Shown here one piece after another: positions 16,197 to 32,857 of a stretch of DNA of 32,857 bases. Origin of the DNA: Chloroflexaceae bacterium (GTDB lineage: Bacteria > Chloroflexota > Chloroflexia > Chloroflexales > Chloroflexaceae); contig JAAUTZ010000041.1 in NCBI GenBank assembly GCA_012031225.1, positions 1 through 32,857 of the forward strand, read 5' to 3'. A program made the translations under genes and the position numbers. How positions within the stretch are numbered: position 1 is the stretch's first letter; every line of letters begins with the position of its first letter. The notes below the pieces were generated by a model that saw only the letters and a program-made list of their open reading frames with translations, did no database searches and was not told where the DNA came from.

Positions 16197-16853
16197 TTAG
16201 GGCACAATCCTTTGCCGCAGCGCATATATTGCTGCTTGAGTACGGTCTGCGAGATGCAGTTTACTCAGTATATTACTAACGTGGGTTTTGACCGTCTTTT
16301 CGCTGATAATCAGAATCTCAGCAATTTCTTTGTTGCTCTTGCCTTGGGCAATCAGGCGCAGTACATCTAGCTCACGCTCCGTCAAATGCTCCCCAGATGG
16401 ACTCAGCACCTGCCCCGCGCCAGCCGGCTGCATCTCCTGCATCACCCGTGCCGCCACCGCCGGATGCAGCACACCCTCGCCGCGCTGGGCCGCAAGGATC
16501 GCGTGGGCAAGGCCTTCGGGCGATACATCCTTGAGCAGATACGAGATCGCCCCGGCTTGCATCGCCCGAAAGATAGACTGATCATCCGTGAAGCTGGTCA
16601 GCACAATGACCTGCGTGCGCGGGCTAATCTGGCGGATCTGGCGGGTTGCCGTAATCCCATCCACGCCGGCCATCATCAGGTCCATCAGCACCACATCCGG
16701 CACAAGTTCGCGCACCAGCGCAACACCCTCTGCACCGCCGCCCGCTTCACCCACCACCTCAATCGCCGCGTGGAGTTCGAGAAAGTCGCGCAGCCCTTGC
16801 CGCACCACCCGATGATCGTCAACAATCAGCACTCGGACCAGTTCGTTTTGCAC
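16197..16853 (-). CDS. Response regulator, NarL/FixJ (LiaR/DegU-like) family
   Basis: The 218-residue product has a receiver domain at 1-125, with acidic pair D12/D13, phospho-acceptor D58 (VVLMDLMM), T86/S87 and K108. A LuxR-type helix-turn-helix lies at about 152-215 (LTERELDVLRLIAQGKSNKEIA...SEKTVKTHVSNILSKL). It would bind DNA after phosphorylation by the kinase encoded 6 nt upstream. The start is a GTG, supported by AGGAG nine bases before it. The target genes are not visible; no matching operators were identified. Confidence 0.93.
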   Translation of the reverse strand: MQNELVRVLIVDDHRVVRQGLRDFLELHAAIEVVGEAGGGAEGVALVRELVPDVVLMDLMMAGVDGITATRQIRQISPRTQVIVLTSFTDDQSIFRAMQAGAISYLLKDVSPEGLAHAILAAQRGEGVLHPAVAARVMQEMQPAGAGQVLSPSGEHLTERELDVLRLIAQGKSNKEIAEILIISEKTVKTHVSNILSKLHLADRTQAAIYALRQRIVP

Positions 16854-16859
16854 CCGCTG

Positions 16860-18059
16860 CTACTCCTGTGGGCTACGGGGGATCAGCAGCGTCAAGGACG
16901 TGCCCTGCCCCACCTGTGAATGCAACCGCAAACTGCCGCCGAGTTCACTGGCCCGCTCGTGCATGGTCAGCAATCCGAGCTGACGGAACCCGCTCGGCGG
17001 AGAGGTATGGACAGGGGGGAGGGCCTCTAGCTCAAAGCCCTGTCCATCATCGGCTACCGTCAAGGCGACGTGCTGCGGCTGGCAATCCAGCACAATCTGG
17101 ACACAGCCGGCGTTTGCATGTTTAACGATATTGTTCAAGGCTTCTTGCACAATCCGATACAGAGCCGCCTCAAAGCCCTGTGTCAGCCGCTCGTCGCCGC
17201 TCACCCGCAGATCAATCCGTAAGCCTTCGCGGTGGCTGATCTGCGCCACCAACTGGCGCAGGGCCGTGACCAAGCCTTGCTCGGCGAGGGCTGGCGGGCG
17301 CAGCTGACTAATCAGGGCCCGCATCTCCGTTAGGGCTGCACTGGCTGTCTCTTGCAGCCGCTCTAGCAATGGCTCGACTCGCTGCGGGTTGCGCTCCAGA
17401 TGGGTGCGGGCGGCTTGGGCCGTCAGCGTAATGCTAAAGAGCTGCTGGGTCACACTATCGTGCAGCTCGCGGGCAAGGCGATTGCGCTCGCGCAGCACGG
17501 CTGCTTCTTGGGCCCGTTGGGCAAGCCGCGTCTGCTCAATCATGCCCGCCAGCAGATCAGCCACCGCCGTCAGCAGCGACACATCATTCAGGGCGAAGCA
17601 GGCTCGGTCGGGCGACTCCAGATTCAACACACCGAGCAGCGTGCCCCGCGCACTGATCGGCACGCACAGCTCCGAGCAGGTGCTGGCATAGCCCGCAAGG
17701 TAGGCGGGGGCCTGCTGCACATCATCCACACGCTGCACCTGCCCAGTCCGAATCGCTTGCCCCAGAATGCCATGCTGCACCGACTGGCGATAGCCGCCTG
17801 TCTGCTGCTCCGCGCCCACCACCGCCGCCAAAACCAGTTCGCTACTGATTGGATCAAGGAGAAAGATTTCGATGGTGGTGTAGCCGCCAGTAGTAGCAAG
17901 ACACTGCGCGGCAGCCGTGAGCAGCGCAGCTTCGGCTTGGGGCGTGGCGGCAATATGCGCTAGCTCGGTGAGCATGGCAATCTGGCGGGCTTGCTGCGCC
18001 ACCAGTAGCCGCAGATCGGGCGGGTTGGAATTGGAGTGGGAGAAGGATGTCGCTTGCAT
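16860..18059 (-). CDS. Sensor histidine kinase with GAF domain (HisKA_3 type)
   Basis: The 399-residue cytoplasmic kinase has an N-terminal helix, a GAF domain (about 35-180, with TIEIFLLDP, CSELCVPISARGTLLGVLNLES), a HisKA_3 dimerisation domain with phospho-acceptor H200 (LARELHDSVTQQLF) and a HATPase_c domain (EALNNIVKHA, ADDGQGFE, GLLTMHERA, GTSLTLLIP). There are no membrane helices, so it senses an internal signal or ligand through GAF. The ATG at 18059 is preferred: an in-frame GTG at 18098 would lie upstream of the transcript start predicted from the promoter at 18101-18109. It forms an operon with the regulator that follows. Confidence 0.92.
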   Translation of the reverse strand: MQATSFSHSNSNPPDLRLLVAQQARQIAMLTELAHIAATPQAEAALLTAAAQCLATTGGYTTIEIFLLDPISSELVLAAVVGAEQQTGGYRQSVQHGILGQAIRTGQVQRVDDVQQAPAYLAGYASTCSELCVPISARGTLLGVLNLESPDRACFALNDVSLLTAVADLLAGMIEQTRLAQRAQEAAVLRERNRLARELHDSVTQQLFSITLTAQAARTHLERNPQRVEPLLERLQETASAALTEMRALISQLRPPALAEQGLVTALRQLVAQISHREGLRIDLRVSGDERLTQGFEAALYRIVQEALNNIVKHANAGCVQIVLDCQPQHVALTVADDGQGFELEALPPVHTSPPSGFRQLGLLTMHERASELGGSLRLHSQVGQGTSLTLLIPRSPQE

Positions 18060-18100
18060 TGGCAATGATCCTACATGGTTTCGTCTGCTTTGTTGCACGT

Positions 18101-18158: not shown

Positions 18159-18187
18159 TTGACAGAGCTGCCCAAATCCGGTATACT
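18159..18187 (+). promoter_or_regulatory. First nad promoter (P1)
   Basis: TTGACA (18159-18164), exactly 17 bp, then TATACT (18182-18187): a near-consensus sigma-70 promoter with a start near 18194. The first regulatory box covers that start. The transcript meets an intrinsic terminator at 18282-18302 before nadA. Confidence 0.8.
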
Positions 18188-18188
18188 T

Positions 18189-18229
18189 GGTGTCAGATTT
18201 ACACTTTCCCCTAGTGTTGATATAACACT
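18189..18229. promoter_or_regulatory. Paired operator boxes A and B at P1
   Basis: Box A is GGTGT-N7-ACACT (18189-18205). Box B is AGTGT-N7-ACACT (18213-18229), extended to TAGTGTT/AACACTA arms. Their centres are 24 bp apart. A bound dimer at A would cover the P1 start site, so repression is the natural reading. The regulator is not encoded in the window. NAD-pathway repressor families (NiaR, NrtR, NadQ) are candidates, but I cannot match this box to one with certainty. Confidence 0.7.
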
Positions 18230-18281
18230 AAATCAGGAGAGTTTGGGATCTGCCTGAATTGATCTGATGTGTAGGATGAGG

Positions 18282-18302
18282 ATCACCTCGCGGTGATTTT
18301 TT
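18282..18302 (+). terminator. Intrinsic terminator in the nadA leader
   Basis: ATCACC pairs with GGTGAT around the TCGC loop and runs into six Ts (18297-18302). It lies about 90 nt after the P1 start and just before P2. A competing small stem, GAGG/CCTC at 18278-18289, would break it, so attenuation is possible. Confidence 0.75.
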
Positions 18303-18304
18303 AA

Positions 18305-18333
18305 CTGACTTGGCTTAGTGTTTTTTTTACAAT
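18305..18333 (+). promoter_or_regulatory. Second nad promoter (P2)
   Basis: CTGACT (18305-18310), 17 bp, then TACAAT (18328-18333), one mismatch from TATAAT. It starts after the terminator, so it could drive nadA directly from about 18340. Its -10 lies inside box C and its start lies against box D. Confidence 0.5.
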
Positions 18334-18357
18334 AACAATTAGTGTTCTTATGACACT
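18317..18357. promoter_or_regulatory. Paired operator boxes C and D at P2
   Basis: Box C is AGTGT-N7-ACAAT (18317-18333, one mismatch). Box D is AGTGT-N7-ACACT (18341-18357), extended to TTAGTGT/ACACTAA. The centres are again exactly 24 bp apart, the same arrangement as boxes A and B. Box C overlaps the P2 -10 hexamer and box D follows the predicted start. Confidence 0.7.
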
Positions 18358-18404
18358 AAATAGCAGTGAGGCTCGCCCTTCACTGGCAACACGAGGAAAT
18401 GAAG

Positions 18405-19367
18405 ATGCACCCAACAACCCCCATTCTGCCGAGCGCAGAAATCATTGCAGCGATTGACCGCCTCAAGCGCGAACACAACGCAATCCTGCTCGCGCATACC
18501 TATCAGACTGGCGATATTCAAGATATTGCCGATGTCGTCGGGGATTCGCTCACGCTGGCTCAAGCCGCCGCCCGCACCAATGCTGACGTAATTGTGTTCT
18601 GCGGCGTGCATTTTATGGCGGAGACAGCGGCGATCCTCTGCCCCGACAAAACCGTCCTGCTGCCTGATCTCGAAGCGGGCTGCTCACTTGCCGCCTCGAT
18701 CAATGCCGAGCAGCTCCGGGCGTGGAAAGCCGAACATCCCGGCGCAGTCGTCGTCTCTTATGTCAACACAACGGCGGAAGTCAAAGCCGAAAGTGACTAC
18801 TGCTGTACCTCCAGCAACGCCGAGCGGGTCATTCGGGCGATCCCCGCAGATCGGCAAATCCTGTTCCTGCCCGACATGTATCTCGGCACGTACCTCCGCG
18901 AGACGACGGGGCGGCCCATCGAGATCTGGGCGGGCGAGTGCCATGTGCATGCCCAGATCAAGCCCCAATTTGTGAATGAGTTGCTGCGCGAGTTCCCCGA
19001 TGCGGAACTGCTTGTGCATCCCGAATGCGGCTGCGTCAGCTCCACCATGAGCGCACTGGCCCGCGGGCAGATCAGCCGCGAACGCACGCGCATCCTCTCA
19101 ACCGGCGGCATGATCACCCACGCCCAACAGAGCGACGCGCAGCAGTTCATTGTGGCAACCGAAATCGGTGTACTGCACCCGATGCAAAAGAACAACCCTG
19201 ACAAGCAGTTCATCCCGGTCGATGCGGGCACATCCTGCCGCTACATGAAGCGCATCACCGTGCCCAAGATCCTGCATTCGCTGCAAACCATGACGCACCC
19301 GATCCGCGTGCCCACCGCGCTAGCGGAGCGGGCCCGGACCGCCATTGATCGGATGGTTGCCCTGTAG
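18405..19367 (+). CDS. nadA: Quinolinate synthase
   Basis: NadA condenses iminoaspartate with dihydroxyacetone phosphate to quinolinate, the second step of de novo NAD synthesis, using an oxygen-sensitive [4Fe-4S] cluster. The 320-residue length is normal. Visible features are LLAHTYQ near residue 30, VVGDSLTLA, and the three cluster-cysteine regions: FCGVHFMAE (C66), CCTSSNAE and HPECGC, followed by STGGM. The start at 18405 is fixed by GAGG eight bases upstream; upstream in-frame starts at 18366 and 18399 are poorly placed. It is the first gene of the nadA-nadB-nadC-scaffold operon. Confidence 0.96.
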   Translation: MHPTTPILPSAEIIAAIDRLKREHNAILLAHTYQTGDIQDIADVVGDSLTLAQAAARTNADVIVFCGVHFMAETAAILCPDKTVLLPDLEAGCSLAASINAEQLRAWKAEHPGAVVVSYVNTTAEVKAESDYCCTSSNAERVIRAIPADRQILFLPDMYLGTYLRETTGRPIEIWAGECHVHAQIKPQFVNELLREFPDAELLVHPECGCVSSTMSALARGQISRERTRILSTGGMITHAQQSDAQQFIVATEIGVLHPMQKNNPDKQFIPVDAGTSCRYMKRITVPKILHSLQTMTHPIRVPTALAERARTAIDRMVAL

Positions 19368-19396: not shown

Positions 19397-21124
19397 ATGA
19401 AAACGTTAGGTTATGGAATAGACGTAAGCCGCCTTGCAGTTGCCACCCCGCGCTACGCCACGCCCTTGCCCGCACAGGCTCAGCGGCAGCACACCGATCT
19501 GCTCGTGATTGGGAGCGGTGCGGCAGGCTTGGCGGCAGCCCTCGCCGCCGCAGAACACGCTGACGTGCTGCTGCTCACCCGGGCAACACTGGCCGAGAGC
19601 AATTCGGCGTGGGCACAGGGCGGGATTGCCGCCGCCCTTGAACAGACCGACTCGCCCGCCGCGCACCTGAGCGATACCCTGATTGCCGGGGCCGGCTTGA
19701 CCGATCCGCTCGTGACGGACGTGCTGGTCCATGAGGCTCCCGCGCTGATGCGCCAACTCGCCGCGCTGGGCGTGCCCTTCGAGCGGGCGGATGGCGGACA
19801 GTTCGCGCTAGGGCTAGAGGGCGGGCACTCACATCGGCGCATCCTGCACAGCGGCGACACAACCGGCTGGGCCATCATCAGCACACTTATGCAGCGGGCC
19901 CGCGCCCACCCGCGGATCCGCCTCCTAGAAGGCATGCACGCGATAGACCTGCGCGGCGAACGCGGACGCTGCACGGGCGTGCTTGCCCTCGATCAGCAGG
20001 GGCAGTGGCACACGCTCGTCGCCCGCGCAACGATCCTCGCCACAGGCGGGGCGGGCGCACTCTACGGGCTGACCAGCAACCAGCCGCATGCACTCGGCGA
20101 AGGCATTGCGCTTGCGTATCGGGCGGGCGCAGCCGTTGCCGATCTGGAGTTTGTCCAGTTCCACCCAACCGTCTTTCGCACCAAAACTGGGCACGGCTTC
20201 CTGATTAGCGAAGCCACGCGCGGCGAGGGCGGCATCCTGCGCGACGTGAACGGCTGGCGATTTATGCCTGATTTCGACCCGCGCGCCGAGCTTGCCCCGC
20301 GTGATATTGTCTCACGGGCGATCTTTGCCACCATGCAGCAGCACGGCCGCGATCACGTCCTGCTAGACCTGACCCATCTCGGCGCGGCGTATCTGGAACA
20401 CCGCTTCCCCTCAATTGTCCAACGCTGCCGCACTGAGGGGCTTGATCCCGCAATCAGCCCGATCCCCATTGCACCTGCCGCGCACTACCTGATGGGCGGC
20501 ATCTGCACCGACACACACGGCGCAACAAGCCTCGCCGGGCTGTATGCGGCGGGCGAGTGTGCCTGTACCGGTATTCACGGAGCCAATCGGCTCGCCAGCA
20601 ATTCACTGCTCGAATGCCTTGTGTTTGGGCGGCGGGCAGCGCGGGCCGCCTTAGCCCACGTTGAGACAGGCATCCACACCTATGGCGCACCGCCAGCGCG
20701 CCCTGCCAATACGCCTGTGTCCGATCCGGCAACGCCCCCCGCCGCGTGGCGCGAAGAGCTAGCCCACACGATGGTTCGCCACGTCGGGGTGCAGCGCAAC
20801 GAGCATGGGCTACAGGCCGCACAGGCCCATCTGGCGCAGTTCCCGCTCACGCTCGCCGCCAACGACAGCACCAACCACGACCTGCTGACTGCGATCAATG
20901 CGGGCTTGGTGGCGCGGCTTGTGGCAAACAGTGCCCGCCTGCGGGAGGAGAGTCGCGGGGCCCACCAGCGCACCGACTTCCCGCACACCGATCCGGCGTG
21001 GCAGGTGCATATCGTGCAGGAGCGCGGGCAGCTGCCCCACATCACCACCAGCATCGCCGATGATGTGTTGTATGGTGCAATTGAGCCAGTTGAACTCATC
21101 CGCCGCACCCAACACGCGGCATAA
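19397..21124 (+). CDS. nadB: L-aspartate oxidase
   Basis: This 575-residue FAD enzyme oxidises L-aspartate to iminoaspartate, the substrate of NadA. It has the dinucleotide motif GSGAAGLAAAL (about residues 37-47), SNSAWAQGGIAAAL, HSGDTTGWAI, FVQFHPT, EATRGEGGILRD, HYLMGGICTD and the C-terminal FAD block GECACTGIHGANRLASNSLLE. A helical tail follows, as in the succinate dehydrogenase flavoprotein superfamily. An N-terminal extension of about 30 residues precedes the FAD motif. It starts 29 nt after nadA with an AAGGA ribosome site. Confidence 0.96.
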   Translation: MKTLGYGIDVSRLAVATPRYATPLPAQAQRQHTDLLVIGSGAAGLAAALAAAEHADVLLLTRATLAESNSAWAQGGIAAALEQTDSPAAHLSDTLIAGAGLTDPLVTDVLVHEAPALMRQLAALGVPFERADGGQFALGLEGGHSHRRILHSGDTTGWAIISTLMQRARAHPRIRLLEGMHAIDLRGERGRCTGVLALDQQGQWHTLVARATILATGGAGALYGLTSNQPHALGEGIALAYRAGAAVADLEFVQFHPTVFRTKTGHGFLISEATRGEGGILRDVNGWRFMPDFDPRAELAPRDIVSRAIFATMQQHGRDHVLLDLTHLGAAYLEHRFPSIVQRCRTEGLDPAISPIPIAPAAHYLMGGICTDTHGATSLAGLYAAGECACTGIHGANRLASNSLLECLVFGRRAARAALAHVETGIHTYGAPPARPANTPVSDPATPPAAWREELAHTMVRHVGVQRNEHGLQAAQAHLAQFPLTLAANDSTNHDLLTAINAGLVARLVANSARLREESRGAHQRTDFPHTDPAWQVHIVQERGQLPHITTSIADDVLYGAIEPVELIRRTQHAA

Positions 21125-21194: not shown

Positions 21195-22070
21195 ATGAAC
21201 CCATTCGATATTCCCCACGATCTGCTCGCTGAGCTTGTGCGCCGCGCCCTGCGCGAGGACATCGGCGACGGCGACCGCACGGTAATGACGCTGATCCCCG
21301 CGCAGGCCCACGCCCACGCCCGCATCATCACCCGCGAAGCAGCAGTGATCGCCGGTGCGCCAGTTGCGGCAGCAGTCTTTGCAGCCGTAGACCCTACCCT
21401 CACAGTGCAAGTCCTTGTTGCCGAAGGTGACCACGTCGCCGCCAATACCCCGCTGCTAACCCTATCCGGCAATGCCCGCAGCATCCTCATGGGCGAACGG
21501 GTTGCGCTGAACCTGATGCAACGAATGTGTGGCATTGCCACGCACACCGCAGCATTTGTAGCAGCTGTTGCGGGCTTGCCGGCCCGCATCCTTGATACGC
21601 GCAAAACCACGCCCGGCTTGCGCGTGCTAGAGAAATACGCCGTGCGGATGGGCGGCGGCATGAACCACCGCTTCGGGCTGTACGATGCAATCATGATCAA
21701 AGATAACCACCTCGCCCTGTTGCGCGGGCAAGGCTTAAGCCTCAGTGCAATTGTGCAACAGGCGCAAGACCGCACCAGCCCCTTCGTTGTTGTCGAAGTC
21801 GAGGTTGAGAGCGTGGAGCAAGCCCTCGAAGCCGCCGATGCAGGCGCAGATATAATCCTCCTCGACAATATGCCCCCCGACCAGATGCGCGAAGCGGTGG
21901 GCCTACTTGGGGGGCGGGTGCCGTTGGAGGCATCCGGCGGGATCACCCTAGCGACGATCCGCGCCGTTGCCGAGAGCGGTGTAGACTACATCTCGGTGGG
22001 CGGGCTGACCCATTCGGTGCGCTCGATTGACCTGAGCCTTGAACTGGAGGCTGTTCAGGGGATCACATAG
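21195..22070 (+). CDS. nadC: Nicotinate-nucleotide pyrophosphorylase (carboxylating), QPRTase
   Basis: NadC converts quinolinate and PRPP to nicotinate mononucleotide with loss of CO2. The 291-residue product has ALREDIGDGDRT, GERVALNLMQRMCGIAT, the phosphoribosyl-binding region ARILDTRKTTPGLRVLEKYAVRMGGG, NHRFGLYDAIMIKDNHL, the EVEVE strand and the GGI and SVGGLTHS loops of the barrel. All catalytic Arg, Lys, His and Glu regions look intact. The ATG has AAGGAG eight bases upstream. It is third in the nad operon, 70 nt after nadB. Confidence 0.96.
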   Translation: MNPFDIPHDLLAELVRRALREDIGDGDRTVMTLIPAQAHAHARIITREAAVIAGAPVAAAVFAAVDPTLTVQVLVAEGDHVAANTPLLTLSGNARSILMGERVALNLMQRMCGIATHTAAFVAAVAGLPARILDTRKTTPGLRVLEKYAVRMGGGMNHRFGLYDAIMIKDNHLALLRGQGLSLSAIVQQAQDRTSPFVVVEVEVESVEQALEAADAGADIILLDNMPPDQMREAVGLLGGRVPLEASGGITLATIRAVAESGVDYISVGGLTHSVRSIDLSLELEAVQGIT

Positions 22071-22103: not shown

Positions 22104-22511
22104 ATGCCTACCCTCGCACCAACTGAAACGCTAGATCGCTTTGAGACGATTGAGCTACTCCAAGCCTACTATCAGCACCCGCCGCACTATGGCAGCCTCA
22201 GCGATGCAACGATCAGCCTGTCGGGGCACACGCCCGGCTGTAGCGATCAACTCACGCTCTATATCCGCCTGAGCCACGCCGGGCAACGTATCGCGCAGGT
22301 GCAGTTTGAAGGGGCGGGCTGCACGATCAGCCAAGCCGCCGCCGCGCTCCTGTGTGAACGGGTGGCGGGCATGCTGGTGTCCGATCTGGCGACGCTCGAT
22401 GTGTGGGCGCTGCTGCCAGAGCTGGATCGCGGCGTGCTTGTCAGCCGTATTCGCTGCGCCACGCTCGCGCTTGGGCTGCTGAAGGTGGGGGTGGCGAGCG
22501 CAGCCGCGTGA
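22104..22511 (+). CDS. SufU/IscU-like Fe-S cluster scaffold protein
   Basis: The 135-residue product follows the SufU/IscU plan. A helix with LLQAYYQHPPHYG comes first. The first ligand region is TPGCSDQLTLYI, standing in for the usual NPxCGD. FEGAGCTISQAAAALL supplies the second cysteine and RIRCATLAL the third. Scaffold or zinc-dependent sulfur-transfer proteins of this family build clusters with a cysteine desulfurase. Thirty-three bases separate it from nadC, with a good AAGGAGC ribosome site, so it belongs to the nad operon and may serve NadA maturation. The Gly-to-Ser change beside the first cysteine is unusual. No sufS is nearby. Confidence 0.82.
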   Translation: MPTLAPTETLDRFETIELLQAYYQHPPHYGSLSDATISLSGHTPGCSDQLTLYIRLSHAGQRIAQVQFEGAGCTISQAAAALLCERVAGMLVSDLATLDVWALLPELDRGVLVSRIRCATLALGLLKVGVASAAA

Positions 22512-31929: not shown

Positions 31930-32857
31930 ATGACCCAACTACAACCCGGAATGGAGTTAATCGGTCGCTATACGATCCAGCAGGTGATTGGGGCAGGTGG
32001 CTTTGGCACCGTCTACCGTGCTACGGATACCCTCGATGAGCGTGATGTGGCTGTCAAGTCGCTTGCGCTGGATGCCCTGCCAACTGCCAACCACACGCAG
32101 GTGCAGCTGAACTTCAAGCGTGAGGCAAAGCTGCTCTATACTTTATCCCATCCAACCCTGCCCCGCGTGAGCAACTACTTTATCGAAACCAACGATGCCT
32201 ATCTGGTGATGGATTACATCGCCGGTCAGAATCTGGCTGATCTGCTGGACAGCAGCCCCGGTCGCCCCTTCGATGCCGCCACCGCGATTGCGGTGATCCT
32301 GCCGGTGCTGGATGCGCTGGCGTATCTGCACACGCACGACCCACCGATCATTCACCGCGACATCAAGCCGGGCAATATCATTCTGACCCCTCAACAGACG
32401 GTCTATCTGGTGGATTTCGGGCTGGCCAAACTGGATCAGGGGGTGCGCCACACGGTAGCGACCGCAGGCTACGCATCGGCAGGGTTTTCATCGCCAGAGC
32501 TGTATATCCGGCAGGTAGACCCGCGAGCCGACTTGTACAGTGTGGGGGCAACACTGTATGCGCTGCTCACGGGGCAGGTGCCCCCAAGTGCCACCGAGCG
32601 CAATGCCTGCCATTCTATCGGTGTGCCGGAGCCGCTGCTGCCAATCCAGCAGGTCAATCCGGCGGTCAGCGATGAACTGGCGGCGGTGGTGATGCGGCTG
32701 CTGGCACTGCGCCCGGATGACCGCTACCCGACGGCAACCGCCGTGCGTGAAGCCTTGCAGGGACGGCGCAAGGTGGCAGTTGCGACAGAACCAGCCGTGC
32801 CCCCCGCCGCCGAGCAAGCCCGCCAGCGTGAGGCCGAAGCCGCCCGCCAGCGTGCCG
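31930..32857 (+). CDS. Hanks-type serine/threonine protein kinase, N-terminal part (runs off the window)
   Basis: The frame opens at an ATG with AGGAG nine bases upstream and continues past the right edge, giving 309 codons here. The kinase domain is complete: glycine loop GAGGFG (21-26), K43 in VAVK, catalytic HRDIKPGN (H142, D144, K146, N149), DFG at 162-164 and SPE in the activation segment, ending near residue 275 with RPDDRYPTATAVREAL. An Ala/Glu/Arg/Gln-rich stretch then begins (EQARQREAEAARQRA), probably a charged linker or coiled coil. A sensor or membrane part may follow outside the window. Substrates are unknown. Confidence 0.92.
   Translation, partial: MTQLQPGMELIGRYTIQQVIGAGGFGTVYRATDTLDERDVAVKSLALDALPTANHTQVQLNFKREAKLLYTLSHPTLPRVSNYFIETNDAYLVMDYIAGQNLADLLDSSPGRPFDAATAIAVILPVLDALAYLHTHDPPIIHRDIKPGNIILTPQQTVYLVDFGLAKLDQGVRHTVATAGYASAGFSSPELYIRQVDPRADLYSVGATLYALLTGQVPPSATERNACHSIGVPEPLLPIQQVNPAVSDELAAVVMRLLALRPDDRYPTATAVREALQGRRKVAVATEPAVPPAAEQARQREAEAARQRA

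Follow-up and report, generated by a model that had tools for sequence, protein, structure and literature searches.

Organisation of the nadA upstream region

The analysed stretch of Chloroflexaceae DNA, here called the window, comprises 32,857 nucleotides and carries nadA, a nadB-like gene and nadC, followed by a SufU/NifU-like gene (Table 1). NadA is an Fe-S enzyme. Divergently oriented to nadABC, across a common intergenic region, are the genes for a histidine kinase with a GAF domain and for a response regulator of the LuxR type (16197-18098).

Table 1. Positions of promoters, boxes, terminator-like elements and genes of the nadABC region in the window.
Feature	Position	Strand	Remarks
P1 promoter	18159..18187	+	TTGACA-17-TATACT, 11/12 consensus
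Box A, candidate NrtR operator	18189..18205	.	GGTGTCAGATTTACACT; 1 mismatch (GGTGT); covers P1 start site
Box B, candidate NrtR operator	18213..18229	.	AGTGTTGATATAACACT; 0 mismatches
Terminator-like hairpin	18278..18301	+	core stem ATCACC-TCGC-GGTGAT (18282-18297)
T6 tract	18297..18302	+	ends 14 nt upstream of box C
P2 candidate, weak	18305..18333	+	CTGACT-17-TACAAT, 9/12 consensus
Box C, candidate NrtR operator	18317..18333	.	AGTGTTTTTTTTACAAT; 1 mismatch (ACAAT)
T8 tract inside box C	18321-18328	.	ends 12 nt upstream of box D
Box D, candidate NrtR operator	18341..18357	.	AGTGTTCTTATGACACT; 0 mismatches
nadA, quinolinate synthase	18399..19367 (start 18399 or 18405)	+	PF02445, E 1.2e-115
nadB-like L-aspartate oxidase	19397..21124	+	FAD_binding_2 and Succ_DH_flav_C; operon position
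nadC, quinolinate phosphoribosyltransferase	21195..22070	+	PF01729 and PF02749
SufU/NifU-like gene after nadC	22104..22511	+	PF01592; SUF_scaf_2 below its cut-off

Upstream of nadA, four AGTGT-N7-ACACT boxes were verified, with centres at 18197, 18221, 18325 and 18349 and centre-to-centre distances of 24 (A-B), 104 (B-C) and 24 bp (C-D); an earlier sequence-only reading of this DNA had described the boxes, their centres, the half-site/7-bp geometry and the 24-bp pairs in the same way. The window has five matches with up to one mismatch, four of which are grouped within 170 bp in this region, a clustering that is not due to chance. The fifth, a perfect box with a G-rich spacer at 32539-32555, lies within a Ser/Thr-kinase-like open reading frame and is probably a chance occurrence.

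As a genome-wide marker the bare 10-base motif had to be rejected, because at one mismatch it shows no excess over the control (63 matches with up to one mismatch, 60 for the reversed motif). The extended form TAGTGT-N7-ACACTA is found at four sites in the genome, every one upstream of NAD genes: boxes B and D, a perfect box 25 bp before the start of nrtR, and a box before a nicotinate phosphoribosyltransferase-like gene. The sequence-only reading had named a random spread of the motif through the genome as an argument against its proposal; in this respect the bare motif is weak and the extended form is specific. Weak genome sites on C59, C95, C119, C70 and C72 had no NAD gene on inspection by eye.

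The two promoters proposed earlier fared differently. P1, with box A over its start, is kept in nearly all leaders of the family (10-12 of 12 consensus positions), whereas the weak P2 is not conserved across relatives. Internal promoters at the downstream boxes were rejected because in most relatives the score does not exceed that of shuffled sequence (mean 6.8 of 12 at internal nadA boxes, 6.1 for shuffled sequence and about 11 for P1). Box A is conserved in the sister species G001 and in genome G011, while box B has one mismatch in G001 and is missing from G011. The 24-bp pairs are confined to this genus, where the pairs of G001 are spaced at 23 and 24 bp, and to G011, which has the downstream pair only; other genera lack them. 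The idea of two promoters with paired boxes therefore stands for this genus and partly for G011, but not as a conserved design. Helical phasing between boxes was rejected as well, as the box-to-box spacing among relatives is too variable (22-104 bp).

Between boxes B and C, and thus between P1 and nadA, lies an element that the sequence-only reading did not contain, a G+C-rich hairpin directly followed by a T6 tract, as is characteristic of intrinsic terminators. The predicted RNA fold of the hairpin has an energy of -10.6 kcal/mol and a z value of -4.28. It is the only clear hairpin in the leader of this genome; the T8 tract in front of box D has no good hairpin. Boxes C and D are situated about 120-165 bp downstream of the predicted P1 start, a location also expected of operators in roadblock repression.

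Box conservation and identity of the regulator

For this genome and its relatives, 30 nadA and 30 nrtR loci were scanned with a box threshold of at most two mismatches. A box was found upstream of nadA in all 30 loci, upstream of nrtR in 29 of 30, and upstream of the nicotinate phosphoribosyltransferase-like gene in 9 of 10. Other box-bearing genes in the class include another phosphoribosyltransferase gene, nadC, pnuC and isochorismatase-family genes, the last of which probably encode nicotinamidases. Conservation before nadA orthologues and before nadE, pnuC, phosphoribosyltransferase and regulator genes supports the proposal that a repressor of NAD genes uses the boxes as its operators.

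Some further occurrences were observed. In genome G015 a biotin-synthase-like radical SAM gene is preceded by two perfect boxes at a distance of 25 bp from each other (L178:1985-2026), a possible extension of the NrtR regulon. In five genomes of the Chloroflexus genus (g10; L200-L204), a gene without assigned identity has a box upstream, and before this box lies an inverted repeat whose loop contains T5. In genus g23 (L175:1912, L176:930, L177:1934) the start codon of nadC lies within a box, and a hairpin, T5 and a further box are found upstream of it.

The genome contains a single gene with an NrtR_WHD domain, nrtR, which heads the nadE operon. Its product has the Nudix domain PF00293 and the NrtR_WHD domain PF21906, both above cut-off, and it gives a nearly full-length PDB sequence match to Shewanella NrtR (3gz5/3gz6). 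NiaR was rejected as the regulator, since no protein with a 3H domain (PF02829) is encoded in the genome. Because the same box precedes nrtR and NAD genes, nrtR is the sole NrtR_WHD gene and NiaR is absent, boxes A-D are almost certainly bound by NrtR, as judged from these sequence comparisons. Control of NAD synthesis by NrtR is the plain part of the result, as it concerns a known regulator and provides a useful annotation for this lineage; NrtR sites in Chloroflexi may already have been described in the literature.

All 30 NrtR proteins examined from the order (L006:4333-5094 and 29 further nrtR loci) have an intact Nudix signature GX5EX7REUXEEXGU, whereas an impaired signature is described for the NrtR regulators of NAD metabolism (PMC4666351). 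The proteins of this order may still be able to hydrolyse their effector. Genome G005 has kept the nadA leader, yet an NrtR match is absent, perhaps due to a gap in the draft assembly. In this genome nadE (L006:5091-6949) is divided between two overlapping frames, one with its CN_hydrolase part and one with its NAD synthase part, possibly a frameshift or an assembly error.

A fixed distance between T-tracts and internal boxes

Comparison of the leaders showed a common order in the family: P1, box 1, a hairpin with a T-tract, about 12 nt, box 2, often a second hairpin with a T-tract and about 12 nt before a box 3, and then nadA. Among the internal nadA boxes, i.e. those downstream of P1, a T-tract ends 11-14 nt upstream in 44 of 53 cases, with a mode of 12-13 nt, as compared to a mean of 3.7 and a maximum of 9 in the shuffled control. 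None of 81 other boxes has this spacing (0/42 promoter-proximal nadA boxes, 0/29 at nrtR and 0/10 at the phosphoribosyltransferase gene pncB). The definition of a T-tract was widened to CTCTTT forms after inspection of the data; strict runs of T5 or longer give the same result, with 34 of 53 internal boxes against 0. Because the relatives are not independent, occurrences were also counted by genus, and the unit is present in 14 of the 15 f1 genera that have internal boxes.

The distance from T-tract to box is 12-13 nt with a standard deviation of 1, against 22-104 bp from box to box; the internal boxes are spaced relative to the terminator T-tract and not relative to one another. The linker between T-tract and box is kept in length but hardly in sequence, with an identity between genera of 32% as compared to 28% for shuffled linkers. 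On the nadA strand, 21 of 28 leaders contain a hairpin with T-tract, as compared to a single case on the other strand and 1.8 of 28 leaders after shuffling. The hairpins are short (4-6 bp in many cases), and their average stability is only slightly above that of shuffled sequences (mean z -0.5). Symmetric DNA-bending tracts were rejected, as mirror A-tracts downstream of the boxes were found in 0 of 53 cases.

The unit varies among genera. In genus g4 the local hairpin 1 is broken and a long-range stem is present, and in several genera the second terminator is a long stem that joins hairpin regions 1 and 2, with the palindrome of box 2 at its tip and a U-rich tract after it; the T-tract of this second terminator again lies 12-15 nt upstream of box 3. 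The nadA leaders of Chloroflexus and of the small genome G008 lack the hairpin/T-tract/box unit.

Across the class, T5 followed by a box after 10-14 nt was found in 30 of 158 genomes, with two matches for the reversed control. A spacing range three times wider (16-30 nt) gave 4 of 158 genomes and a spacing of 0-9 nt gave 8 of 158. Matches to the pattern in Chloroflexus, at pnuC and within a gene of G054 were judged by eye to have no terminator hairpin. Outside the family the unit recurs at nadA in f3 and f4, the cases at nadA comprising six genomes of f3 together with G065, and it is also found at an HSP70-like gene (G068, G086) and an isochorismatase gene (G086) in families f4 and f5; f5 (G086) is a family of the same class outside the order. 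The nadC gene of genus g23 has a similar unit upstream, in which the gap after T5 is longer, at 15 nt. The hairpin sequences are unrelated between families (for example GCCCC/GGGGC, GGCGA/TCGCC and GGCC/GGCC), so that the arrangement must persist or arise anew as the hairpin sequence changes. Among the named nadA leaders inspected, those of other phyla included, the unit was seen in Chloroflexales only. A gene for an HSP70/actin-like ATPase carries boxes in several genomes of the class (L223:1262, L227:1549, L196:1195), in two of them with a terminator unit.

Proposed mechanism and alternative explanations

RNA polymerase reaches about 14-18 bp ahead of its active site, and a protein on an operator 12-13 nt past a T-tract would therefore be expected to stall the enzyme with its active site on that tract. 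In the proposed mechanism, NrtR that covers the P1 start by binding to box A (and B) would block initiation, whereas NrtR on boxes C and D, each 12-14 nt after a T-tract, would form a roadblock to elongating polymerase. The front of the polymerase would meet NrtR while the active site sits on the U-tract, and the stall would give the weak hairpin additional time to form, leading to release of the transcript. ADP-ribose is the inducer of other NrtR proteins; an inducer that removes NrtR would let polymerase cross the weak terminator so that nadABC is expressed. This combination of NrtR operators, an initiation block at box A (and B) and repressor-gated termination at C and D is, as a whole, a reasonably probable reading. 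For roadblock-coupled termination with its inducer, judged from sequence patterns, we put the likelihood slightly above even. The general formulation, that a repressor bound one polymerase-reach past a weak intrinsic terminator switches the terminator on, by the logic of RNA polymerase I terminators but under control of a metabolite, at several NAD genes throughout the class and with unrelated hairpin sequences, could equally well prove right or wrong.

The boxes might also act by plain NrtR repression, with cooperative dimers on one or two promoters blocking initiation and hairpins that are unrelated or merely stop read-through. Tandem 21-bp sites 3 bp apart, equivalent to a 24-bp spacing, are known for the NrtR-family regulator AraR of Bacteroides (PMC4666351), and the 9/12 P2 candidate in G000 would fit a second promoter. 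Elsewhere, however, the internal boxes have no promoter, the constant distance is that from T-tract to box and not that from box to box, and the hairpins lie where they would cut the transcripts that start at P1, which makes plain repression unlikely. It is even less probable that the leader acts as an RNA attenuator or switch without NrtR and that the boxes are embedded in it by accident. The long stem of several genera, tipped by the palindrome of box 2 and followed by a U-rich tract, has the appearance of such an element, but an Rfam search gave no match to a known riboswitch or leader RNA family, the last box keeps the 12-nt spacing although it lies outside any such RNA fold, and the hairpin sequences are unrelated between families.

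The sequence-only reading had suggested that the boxes bind an undescribed NAD-responsive repressor other than NrtR. The box is indeed unlike published NrtR palindromes such as the mycobacterial GTTTTCGA-N7-TCGAAAAC (PMC6800001); NrtR operators are known to vary widely (PMC4666351). With a box before nrtR in nearly all relatives, a recognition domain that is nearly invariant throughout the lineage and no NiaR, we replace the undescribed regulator by NrtR and regard a different protein as highly improbable.

If repressor-gated termination is correct, two textbook mechanisms, repressor roadblock and intrinsic termination, are combined here in a single regulated device whose spacing rule can be measured. 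Such a rule could help to locate further repressor-gated terminators in genomes and to design tight switches. A simple bacterial system would then also be available for studying how bound protein, T-tract and hairpin cooperate, a matter long debated for RNA polymerase I.

Comparison with known systems

The system resembles known NrtR regulons in its regulator, composed of Nudix and NrtR_WHD domains, and in having palindromes of roughly 21 bp upstream of both the nad genes and nrtR. It differs in a lineage-specific operator and in the presence of several operators inside the nadA leader. AraR, with the same site spacing as A-B and C-D, regulates arabinose genes, and coupling to a terminator is not mentioned in the consulted passages of PMC4666351.

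Elongating polymerase can be halted by repressors that occupy sites past the promoter, as described for the LacI, CcpA, CodY and PurR roadblocks (PMC10310618, PMC4132739). With LacI in E. coli, release of the stalled polymerase depends largely on Mfd (PMC4132739), whereas in the nadA leader a terminator hairpin and T-tract are situated at the predicted stall position. In the open-licence papers searched we found no description of a bacterial equivalent of a repressor-gated terminator. The eukaryotic RNA polymerase I terminators (Reb1/Nsi1/TTF1) consist of the same parts: an RNA hairpin, a T-rich stretch and a bound roadblock about 15 bp downstream cooperate (PMC12366685). NrtR-gated termination is proposed from the anatomy of the leaders, together with known roadblock repression and these terminators. 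RNA polymerase I terminators are constitutive and located at the ends of eukaryotic rRNA genes, whereas the proposed device would operate in a regulated bacterial leader, where the hairpin immediately adjoins the T-tract and backtracking would therefore not be needed.
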